Origin: Thermosulfurimonas sp. F29
GTDB lineage: Bacteria > Desulfobacterota > Thermodesulfobacteria > Thermodesulfobacteriales > Thermodesulfobacteriaceae
DNA length: 64,000 nucleotides
NCBI RefSeq assembly: GCF_019688735.1
Contig: NZ_JAIFYA010000001.1
Coordinates: 248,001 to 312,000, forward strand
Reading direction: 5' to 3'
The notes under the pieces were generated by a model. That model ran no database searches. It was not told the origin of the DNA and was given only the letters and a program-made list of their open reading frames with translations. Positions 26,046 through 29,513 of the stretch are shown piece by piece (positions within the stretch are counted from its first letter, which is position 1; every line of letters starts with the position of its first letter). A program made the position numbers and the translations under genes.

Positions 26046-26745
26046 GTTTCAGTCTCTGAATCTCTTCCGGACTAAGTTTCCGGAATTCTCCCGGGCGCAG
26101 GTGGCCGAGTTCCAGAGGACCGAAGCGCACCCTTTTCAGGCCGATCACCTCAAACCCCAGGGCCCGAAACATGCGTTTTATTTGATGATGCCGGCCCTCG
26201 AAGAGGGTTATTTCGAGAAGAGTGTCCTCCTCGCCTCTTTCCAGGATCCGGGCCCGGGCCGGAAGGGTCCTCCGGCCGTCCAGGACGAACCCCTCCTCAA
26301 AGGCGCGAAGCTTCTCCTCCGGAAACTCACCTCTTACCCGGACCCGGTAGACCCGGGGAACGCGATACCTGGGGTGAAGGAGCCTGTGGGCCAGTTCCCC
26401 GTCGTCGGTTACGAGGAGGAGCCCTTCGGCATCCCGATCGAGTCGGCCCACCGGGAAAAGCCTTTCGGCCCGGGGCACATCCCGGAAAAACTCCATTACC
26501 GTGGGATGAGGATCACGGGTGGAGGTCACATAGCCCCGGGGCTTGTAAAGGAGAAAGTACCGGGGTCCCTGAGGAGTGGGTACCGGTTCTCCGTCCAGGG
26601 TCACCTCCTCGCCGGGCCGGACCCGATAGGCGGGATCCCGCACCCGCCTTCCGTTTACGGTCACACGGCCCTTAAGGATCAGCTTTTTCACCTCCCTGCG
26701 GGAGCCCAGCCCGGCTTCGGCGAGGAAACGATCCAGGCGCATCAC
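26014..26745 (-). CDS. RsuA/RluB-family rRNA pseudouridine synthase
   Basis: 243 residues. An S4 RNA-binding domain (about 1-60, RLDRFLAEAGLGSRREV) precedes a catalytic domain with the conserved GRLDRDAEGLLL (about 99-110) that contains the nucleophilic Asp, and the C-terminal GRHHQIKRMF motif. Distinguishing 23S RluB from 16S RsuA needs alignment; the basic C-terminal tail is short. It overlaps the MEMO-family gene upstream by 4 bp and fabH at the other end. Confidence 0.92.
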   Translation of the reverse strand: MMRLDRFLAEAGLGSRREVKKLILKGRVTVNGRRVRDPAYRVRPGEEVTLDGEPVPTPQGPRYFLLYKPRGYVTSTRDPHPTVMEFFRDVPRAERLFPVGRLDRDAEGLLLVTDDGELAHRLLHPRYRVPRVYRVRVRGEFPEEKLRAFEEGFVLDGRRTLPARARILERGEEDTLLEITLFEGRHHQIKRMFRALGFEVIGLKRVRFGPLELGHLRPGEFRKLSPEEIQRLKLTTASARRPR

Positions 26746-27935
26746 CGGTAAATTCCCGCCGCAGCGATGGAGACGAGAGAACCCGGACCGAAGGGCACCG
26801 CCTCCTGGTGATATATTTCCCCCCGCAGATCCAGACCGGAAAGCATCCGGGCCGTAAAGAGGAGAACGCTCAGTCCACAGATCTTGAAGGGGAGACTTTG
26901 CCGGGCTTCGAGGAAAAACCGCGGGTAATCCCCGGAAAACAGGGCCTCAAGGAGGGCTCGATCCCGGCGGAGGGCCTCGCGGCCTTCCCTTTCGCCCGCC
27001 GGGAAGGGATCACCGTACCGGAGGCCCAGATGGGCAAAGTCTATGCCCAGCACCAGACAGGTGCGTTCGTCCAGGAGTTTCCGAAGGGCGGAAAGCCATT
27101 CCCGGTAAAGAGGTTCCGCCTCAAAGGGGTCCCTTCCCTCGGAGAGGTAACCCTCCACCGGTCCGAAAAGGATGGGCACCACCCTGAAGTCCGCGAAACG
27201 ATACCTCAGAAACAGGGCCTGGAATTCCAGCGAGTGTTCGTTTCGGTGAGAGAAGTGGTCGGGGAAGGGGCGGGAGACCCTCCGGCACAGGAAGTCCACC
27301 GCCTCCCGGTCCACCGGCACGACCCCGAGGGGGGTGTCCATGTCCTTGGTGAGCACCGAGAGGGGATGGGACAGGTGATGACCGGTTCCGAAAAGAAGCA
27401 CCCGGGCTCCCCGGGGAAGAGAAAGAGCCCGGTAGGCCGCGGCGAAGCCCCGGGCCCCAGAGGAGAGGTCGAGGTGCGGGGCCACCAGCACCCGGGGGGC
27501 CTGCCGGGGCGAAGGGACCTCGCGGGCCAGGATCCCCTCCAGAAACTTCCTGAGAGCCTCCGGTTCGGCGGGATAGGAACGGCCGGCGCAGGCGGGGGGA
27601 CGAACGGAGGCGTTGCGCCAGGAAGCCTCCGCGGCCTCCCGGAGACGCTCGAAGGTCTCCCCCTCCAGGAAACCGCAGGCCTCCAGTCTCTCCACCAGGG
27701 AAACGACCTCCTCGAGCATGACCAGGCGTCCCAGAGTGCGGGTAGCGGCGGCCTGAAGGTCCCGCAGGTCGTGCCGACCGTCCATCAGAGAGAGAAGGGG
27801 AGCCAGCACCCGGGGAACCACCAGGAATTCCTCGCTGTAGCCCAGGGGATCGCGGAGAATGAGGGAGGGTCGCCCCTCCCATTCCACCGGAACCACATCC
27901 AGAGGCCGCAGGCAGGGGGTAAAGTCCGGTCTCAT
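26742..27935 (-). CDS. MEMO-family protein (AmmeMemoRadiSam system B) with N-terminal extension
   Basis: 397 residues. From about residue 112 the MEMO domain begins (PPACAGRSYP, then VLVAPHLDLSSGARG and GTGHHLSH); several conserved His and Asp residues line up with the metal-site residues of human MEMO1. Before it lie about 110 residues with a PqqD-like or winged-helix character (VVPRVLAPLLSLMDGRHDL). Bacterial MEMO proteins often occur with an AMMECR1 protein and a radical SAM enzyme, but neither is in the window. Function remains unknown. It overlaps the ParB-like gene by 4 bp. Confidence 0.82.
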   Translation of the reverse strand: MRPDFTPCLRPLDVVPVEWEGRPSLILRDPLGYSEEFLVVPRVLAPLLSLMDGRHDLRDLQAAATRTLGRLVMLEEVVSLVERLEACGFLEGETFERLREAAEASWRNASVRPPACAGRSYPAEPEALRKFLEGILAREVPSPRQAPRVLVAPHLDLSSGARGFAAAYRALSLPRGARVLLFGTGHHLSHPLSVLTKDMDTPLGVVPVDREAVDFLCRRVSRPFPDHFSHRNEHSLEFQALFLRYRFADFRVVPILFGPVEGYLSEGRDPFEAEPLYREWLSALRKLLDERTCLVLGIDFAHLGLRYGDPFPAGEREGREALRRDRALLEALFSGDYPRFFLEARQSLPFKICGLSVLLFTARMLSGLDLRGEIYHQEAVPFGPGSLVSIAAAGIYR

Positions 27936-28714
27936 TCCATCCCGCCGAAGTCCGTCGGCCCGAGCTCCCGTACGGCCTCCTTCACCCGGGAAAGGGCGTC
28001 GTAATACTCGTCCTCTATGGTGCGCACCCGTACTCCGTAGGCCCGCTGTACGGCCTTGCGCACGATCTCTCCCTTGAGCAGCGCATTGGTCCAGCCCAGT
28101 TCGGCGTACTTGGCGTTCACCTCCTGGTTCAGGTCAACCAGGGCCTGAGCCCGGCGGCGCCGCTCCTCGGCGGCCTCCGAAAGGGGTTCCTCAAGGAAAC
28201 GGTCGATCTTCGCCAGCAGGCTCTCGTAGAAACTGGCCGGGAACCGATTTTCCATTTCCTCCAGCACGAAACCGAAGGTGAGAAACTGGGGTTCCTTGAA
28301 GTAGGTGAAGAGATCGGCCTCAATGGTCTCGGGATTTTCCCGCAGGAACTCCTGAAAGAGCCGGTAGGCCTGCCGGGACTTTTCCTTCACATTCGGGGGT
28401 TTTTCGGTGTTGAACTCCAGGATGCTGAGGTAGAGCTCCTCCGGAGCCACCACCGCCACCACCTCTCTGGCTCCCAGATCCCGCAGGGCCTCCAGACGGT
28501 GCTGACCGTCCACCACATAGTAAGCCCCCTCGTGGGGACACACGATTATGGGGGTGATGAATCCCAGCTTCTCGATGGCGAGCTCCAGGTGCTTCTTCAG
28601 GCCCTCGGAAATGTCTCTCTGGAAGGGGGGAACCTTTACCTCGTCTATTTCGAACACCGCAAGCCTCAGAGGTTGCCTTTTCACCGGATCCTCAAAACGG
28701 GCCAGCTCCCGCAT
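27932..28714 (-). CDS. ParB/Srx-fold DNA-binding-like protein
   Basis: 260 residues from the ATG at 28714 (GGAGGGGTGGCC upstream). Residues 15-105 carry a ParB N-terminal domain: VKVPPFQRDI, ITPIIVCP, YYVVDGQHRLEALRDLG. The VDGQHR motif is the nucleotide-binding signature of the ParB/Srx fold (CTPase in true ParB). The rest is helical and lacks an obvious helix-turn-helix. No parA is nearby, so it is probably not a chromosome partition protein. It is coupled to the MEMO gene. Confidence 0.8.
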   Translation of the reverse strand: MRELARFEDPVKRQPLRLAVFEIDEVKVPPFQRDISEGLKKHLELAIEKLGFITPIIVCPHEGAYYVVDGQHRLEALRDLGAREVVAVVAPEELYLSILEFNTEKPPNVKEKSRQAYRLFQEFLRENPETIEADLFTYFKEPQFLTFGFVLEEMENRFPASFYESLLAKIDRFLEEPLSEAAEERRRRAQALVDLNQEVNAKYAELGWTNALLKGEIVRKAVQRAYGVRVRTIEDEYYDALSRVKEAVRELGPTDFGGME

Positions 28715-28728
28715 GGCCACCCCTCCCT

Positions 28729-28962
28729 CTAAATGGTCCGGTCCACGATGAGCCCCCGGTAAAACCTCTCTGGTTCGGTAAAATGTCGGTAATACCCCTG
28801 GGGGCTTTTTCCCCACAGGACGAATTCCGGAGGCGTCCCCGCCGCCCCGGCACCCGCTCTTCGGATGCCCTGCGGGGGCCCCTTATAAGGGGTAAACATT
28901 CCATCCCGGAAGTAAAGGGGGGAGGAAAGAGCCATGTTGAGGATCTTCAAAAACCCGTTCAT
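28729..28962 (-). CDS. Small protein of unknown function before the ParB-like gene
   Basis: A 77-residue reading frame that ends 14 bp before the ParB-like gene. It is Gly/Pro-rich in the middle and aromatic-rich at the end (YYRHFTEPERFYRGL), with codon use like the neighbours. There is no clear ribosome site at the ATG at 28962; a second ATG lies ten codons later. No family recognised. It may be real but could be chance. Confidence 0.4.
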   Translation of the reverse strand: MNGFLKILNMALSSPLYFRDGMFTPYKGPPQGIRRAGAGAAGTPPEFVLWGKSPQGYYRHFTEPERFYRGLIVDRTI

Positions 28963-28967
28963 GGGAT

Positions 28968-28994
28968 TAAAGTTTTGGGAGGTCCTGCCGATAT
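28968..28994 (+). promoter_or_regulatory. Sigma-28 (FliA) flagellar promoter
   Basis: TAAAGTTT (28968-28975), an 11-base spacer and GCCGATAT (28987-28994) match the sigma-28 consensus TAAAGTTT-N11-GCCGATAA at all but one base. Transcription would start near 29001, 28 bases before a 56-residue FlgM-like gene, with flgM next. Confidence 0.9.
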
Positions 28995-29028
28995 TAAATA
29001 ATAGAAGAGGTGCGGGTGCAAGAGGACC

Positions 29029-29199
29029 ATGAGCATAAACTTTCCTGATCTGAAAGAGGTTATTAAAATATACGAGAGGAAAGGGTTAAAGAGTCCTCTT
29101 TTGCGCAAAAAGGAGGTTGAGCGCTCGGAGGATCGGGTGAGCATTTCGGAGGAAGCGCGTCGGAAGCTTGCCGAAATTCAATCCCGGGAAGGAGAATAG
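29029..29199 (+). CDS. 56-residue FlgM-like small protein
   Basis: Short reading frame from the ATG at 29029 to TAG at 29197-29199, directly behind the sigma-28 promoter and 2 bp before flgM. It is charged and helical, and its middle part EDRVSISEEARRKLAE resembles the linker segment of FlgM proteins (DRV-x-x-S-x-x-A). It lacks the C-terminal sigma-binding helices. It may be a truncated FlgM relative or another flagellar regulator. The ribosome site AGAGGA is close to the start. Confidence 0.65.
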   Translation: MSINFPDLKEVIKIYERKGLKSPLLRKKEVERSEDRVSISEEARRKLAEIQSREGE

Positions 29200-29201
29200 C
29201 C

Positions 29202-29513
29202 ATGAAGGTAAAAGATGTACTTCCCTACCTGCAGACCCCGGCCAGGGGGGTGGAGCGTTCCGGGAAGGGGCCGCGGCCGGAGCGGGTTCCGTCCGGTCGT
29301 CCGGAAAACACCGTCACCGAAGCGGGCGACAGGGTGGAATTGCGGTCGCGGCGGATGGTAGAGGAGGCCCGCAACCGGGCCCAGGAGATACCCGAGGTGC
29401 GGGAGGAGAAGGTGGAGGCCCTCCGGCGGCAAATAGAAAGCGGGGCCTATCGGGTGGCCCCGGAGAAGGTGGCCCGGGCCATGCTCGCCGACCTTCTCCG
29501 GGACATTTACTGA
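29202..29513 (+). CDS. flgM: Anti-sigma-28 factor FlgM
   Basis: 103 residues with a disordered, Pro/Gly/Arg-rich N-terminal half and a C-terminal half matching FlgM: DRVELRSR, then VREEKVEALRRQIESGAY and EKVARAMLADLLRDI, the helices that hold sigma-28. FlgM keeps FliA inactive until the hook-basal body is complete and FlgM is exported. The ribosome site AAGGAG lies 9 bases before the ATG. Transcription from a sigma-28 promoter is the expected autoregulatory loop. No other flagellar gene is in the window. Confidence 0.9.
   Translation: MKVKDVLPYLQTPARGVERSGKGPRPERVPSGRPENTVTEAGDRVELRSRRMVEEARNRAQEIPEVREEKVEALRRQIESGAYRVAPEKVARAMLADLLRDIY

Follow-up and report, generated by a model that had tools for sequence, protein, structure and literature searches.

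Among the textbook examples of a regulatory switch is the FlgM-FliA checkpoint. FliS has been reported to bind FlgM and to suppress its secretion (PMC7248283). Within the phylum that includes Thermosulfurimonas, a small protein encoded together with FlgM is widespread; it has been named by NCBIfam (NF041863, 'DVU0524 family FlgM-associated protein') and is functionally uncharacterised, and a literature search for 'DVU0524' or 'FlgM-associated protein' found no mention of either term. Here we describe a further, compact and divergent representative of this already named family, which is encoded directly upstream of flgM in the 64,000-nucleotide stretch of the genome of the thermophile Thermosulfurimonas sp. 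F29 that was analysed as a whole (hereafter the window). Its features are compared below with those of the DVU0524 family, FlgM (PF04316) and FlaG (PF03646).

The sigma-28 (FliA) type promoter of this locus (Table 1) deviates from the consensus TAAAGTTT-N11-GCCGATAA at a single base, which bears out the first-pass annotation in its description of a near-perfect promoter ahead of a short gene and flgM. Sites with three or fewer mismatches occur twice in the 64-kb window against an expectation of 0.20, and the promoter is the only one-mismatch site among the window's sequences. Genome-wide, there are two such one-mismatch sites, the other being located 5' of fliD (L147), and weaker sites were found in the same genome 5' of flagellin (L150), fliK-like (L151) and flgE-like (L163) genes, where all four gene names were read by eye from the translations. 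The promoter is consistent with a functioning sigma-28 regulon, and it is kept in relatives ahead of the 56-aa-type gene and flgM.

Table 1. Positions of the features at and next to the flgM locus, numbered from the first base of the window.
Feature	Position	Strand	Basis or remark
Memo-like (AmmeMemoRadiSam B type) protein	26742-27935	-	
ParB/Spo0J-like protein	27932-28720	-	
77-aa frame	28729-28962	-	points away from the sigma-28 promoter; 6 bp between its start codon and the -35 box
sigma-28 (FliA) type promoter, TAAAGTTT-N11-GCCGATAT	28968-28994	+	15/16 bases of consensus, 11-nt spacing
56-aa protein related to the DVU0524 family (NF041863), compact and divergent	29029-29199	+	held-out profile, selection, position in relatives
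GGAG Shine-Dalgarno of flgM	29191-29194	+	within the final codons of the 56-aa frame; 7 nt separate it from the ATG
flgM, anti-sigma-28 factor, 103 aa	29202-29513	+	Pfam PF04316, NCBIfam TIGR03824

Downstream of this promoter, the product of flgM was recognized beyond doubt by PF04316 (52.9 bits, E=4.3e-14) and TIGR03824 (50.5 bits, cut-off 40.75). The short frame that precedes it on the same strand ends 2 nt before the flgM ATG. The proposed linkage of the two genes was correct. Homologues of 54-59 aa occupy the same place behind the same promoter type in three other genomes, with identities to the 56-aa protein of 75% in Thermosulfurimonas sp. S012_5 (G003, L123), 67% in G001 (L124) and 55% in Thermosulfurimonas dismutans S95 (G008, L125). 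The gene is also present in G007, a genome that is 64% complete, but is frameshifted there at a run of C. Substitutions among the homologues fall mostly at third codon positions, and pairwise comparisons gave dN values of about 0.16-0.43 with dS saturated or about 2, the values for flgM in the same pairs being similar. This substitution pattern indicates that the 56-aa gene is under purifying selection of a strength equal to that acting on flgM. A spurious frame is ruled out by this conservation, by the bias towards third positions and by the held-out profile described below, and on this comparative evidence the 56-codon frame is confirmed as a real gene. The presence of a small gene between promoter and flgM had been proposed in the first-pass annotation, and we also accept its remark that a gene this short is likely to escape gene callers.

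The gap between the 56-aa-type gene and flgM measures 2-3 nt in close relatives, and a 4-nt overlap is frequent in the Thermodesulfatator group (f3). Since the Shine-Dalgarno sequence of flgM lies inside the 56-aa frame, the two genes are likely to be translationally coupled. This arrangement, with the adjacent stop codon, the internal Shine-Dalgarno sequence and the overlaps in many f3 relatives, could also be read as that of a leader peptide, in which translation of the short frame by itself would set FlgM synthesis through coupling and the peptide would have no task of its own. We regard such a peptide as most improbable because the amino-acid sequence is under purifying selection, because M1, V11, Y15, R17, D35, I39 and E42 are invariant across divergent homologues (12 were aligned), and because homologues exist away from flgM.

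The only NCBIfam match of the 56-aa protein was NF041863, with a score of 18.7 bits that lies under the curated cut-off of 40 bits, which is a naming threshold. Matches located 5' of flgM in the f3 genomes are likewise under this cut-off. A profile was built from 20 family members with the Thermosulfurimonas clade left out and compared with 1195 frames of the window. The 56-aa frame was retrieved with E=1.4e-10 (37.0 bits), while the runner-up reached 6.7 bits; when the peptide was shuffled 2000 times, the highest score was 13.7 bits, as compared to 37.6 for the real sequence. Judged by these profile comparisons, homology of the 56-aa protein to the N-terminal domain of the DVU0524 family is secure, and the protein is best described as a divergent relative by homology and not as a member under NCBI's naming rule. 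It shares with the family the N-terminal motif M-x-I...V-x-x-Y-x-R...D-x-V-x-I-S-x-E-A/G-R/K and the position directly 5' of flgM on the same strand, with a sigma-28-like promoter in the relatives inspected. The families f2 and f3, which include Thermodesulfatator, have for instance homologues of 107-135 aa that lie directly 5' of flgM behind sigma-28-like promoters. One difference is size, as most of the flgM-linked members read have about 107-146 aa. The compact form represents the minimal conserved unit, and the long forms reveal an additional FlaG-like segment.

The short peptide had initially been taken for a relative of FlgM, and this did not hold: it has no match to the FlgM domain PF04316 in Pfam at E<=1 and belongs with a separate, named family. 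Comparison of the DVU0524-family profile with the FlgM profile gave a probability of 25% over 12 columns, which cover a D-x-V-x-I-S motif, and the profile of the long homologues gave 3%. The Pfam search and the profile comparisons rule out a FlgM paralogue. What stands of the suggested resemblance to a part of FlgM is this short motif (D-x-V-x-L/I-S), and nothing beyond it; the two proteins are otherwise alike in being flagellar and small and, presumably, in being largely disordered. Fusions to FlgM, which could have served as a Rosetta-stone clue, were absent among the long open frames inspected. The shared motif and the common transcription unit with flgM are what one would expect if the peptide mimicked the stretch at which the sigma-binding part of FlgM begins, and competed with FlgM for FliA as a decoy. 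However, the likeness extends over no more than those 12 columns and resembles a common helix-capping motif that is also present in designed proteins, the conserved C-terminal region of FlgM with its helices is missing, and many family members adjoin fliD and fliS instead of flgM, which makes competition for FliA decidedly unlikely.

The long homologues, of which L129:5001-5321 is one example and to which many of the flgM-linked members belong, carry a C-terminal part that resembles FlaG. In hhalign comparisons this part matched FlaG over 47 columns with 95% probability and E=3.6e-8, whereas the control comparison of FlgM with FlaG gave 0.5%. Of 20 long members, 5 gave sub-cut-off matches to the Pfam FlaG model, with 3.6e-4 as the lowest E value, and none was called above the cut-off; a PDB sequence search had FlaG (6jsx) as its top, albeit weak, and sole flagellar match. 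The long homologues end in a FlaG-like hairpin-helix segment that the 56-aa protein lacks; the Pfam search detected no FlaG domain in it, and a separate FlaG is present in the same genome.

Matches to NF041863 at E<=1e-3 were obtained in 124 of 395 genomes of the phylum (86 above the cut-off), and FlgM matches in 263 of the 395. Among the above-cut-off members for which a flgM position was listed (56 assessable members), 49 precede flgM in the same orientation, at 218-578 bp when measured between the profile matches. The corresponding number for below-cut-off members is 3 of 21. Some of the cases without adjacency come from draft genomes in which the two genes are on separate contigs. The inspected members located away from flgM (short DVU0524-like loci L126, L127, L132, L135, L137, L138, L140 and L143) are mostly found in clusters that read fliD, fliS, response regulators, PilZ and motA/motB, the neighbours being annotated by sequence reading. 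In Nitrospira, members are located downstream of fliD, fliS and a FliT-like gene. As far as can be read from these neighbours, the fliD-fliS-...-response regulator-PilZ-motAB cluster represents a second genomic context of the DVU0524 family, and it points to candidate partners. The proteins of about 50-90 aa from such clusters in Desulfobacterota and Nitrospira have the same N-terminal motif as the 56-aa protein, are equally short and have no FlaG-like part, but unlike the 56-aa gene their genes do not adjoin flgM.

Both the FlaG-like segment of the long homologues and the proximity to fliD and fliS in the second context would suit a protein that, like FlaG, is secreted via the flagellum and has the filament or cap as its site of action, the place 5' of flgM giving it late timing only. 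That FlgM itself is exported also counts for such an export substrate or filament accessory. We nevertheless consider this rather unlikely, as the 56-aa protein has no FlaG-like segment in a genome that encodes FlaG separately, and as the N-terminal motif, without the FlaG part, is all that is conserved across both contexts. The neighbourhood as such does not separate the two, since it fits a regulator of FlgM and a late structural or export accessory alike.

Conservation of the short frame in relatives that keep the promoter and flgM had been named as the yardstick for the first-pass proposal, and proved to be patchy: it holds for G001, G003 and G008, and for G007 in frameshifted form, but not for G002, G004 and G005. 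In these last three congeners the promoter and flgM are retained and the 56-aa-type gene is absent, with no homologue found in a search at E<=1. Consistent with this, the distance from promoter to flgM is 79-82 nt in the three genomes, as opposed to 203-223 nt in gene-bearing genomes. Most likely, the gene was cleanly deleted while promoter and flgM stayed in place; gain in the gene-bearing congeners is less likely because the family is widely present upstream of flgM. In two other genera of the Thermodesulfobacteriaceae, the search likewise found no homologue in most genomes. The congeners that have promoter and flgM without the gene imply that the gene is accessory and not essential, and these absences together imply an effect that is either modest or can be replaced. 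Sister species that naturally lack the gene can serve directly for comparison.

AlphaFold predicted helices without a globular core for the 56-mer (pLDDT 61.8), the helical segments in this low-confidence model covering residues 7-17 and 41-54. This model and that of the long homologue L129 (pLDDT 49) were too uncertain for use, and a Foldseek fold search returned nothing significant.

In our estimation there is an even chance that the 56-aa product is a small adaptor of the late flagellar stage, disordered for the most part, with an accessory role in tuning the handling or export of FlgM. The sigma-28 RNA polymerase would transcribe its gene and flgM as a two-gene unit. The product is an N-terminal-only DVU0524 relative in which an N-terminal amphipathic helix (M-x-I...V-I-x-x-Y-x-R) is followed by a flexible linker and the start of a helix (D-x-V-x-I-S-x-E-A-R), and it would be made as FlgM export begins. 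Its two conserved helices may dock on FlgM or on late-export components, such as a FliS-type chaperone or the export gate, and this docking could fine-tune FlgM handling and hence sigma-28 output or filament maturation. Because FliS reportedly controls FlgM secretion, the flgM and fliD/fliS contexts are compatible with one partner network. More speculatively, and on balance improbably, the N-terminal motif could define a class of flagellar adaptor peptides that has so far gone unrecognised. Their genes would adjoin either flgM or fliD/fliS, a FlaG-like segment would be attached in some of them, and the peptides would link FlgM export to the FliS/FlaG branch of filament maturation, forming a late checkpoint in addition to the classical pair of FlgM and FliA.

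The 77-aa frame on the opposite strand (Table 1), with the residue pattern M..FL.ILN.ALSSPLYF...MFTP.KG..., had no match in a Pfam search. It is conserved in G001, G003, G004 and G007 with 46-66% identity and dN well under dS, and is truncated in G002 and G005. The genes for the ParB/Spo0J-like and Memo-like proteins on the same strand overlap by a few bases.
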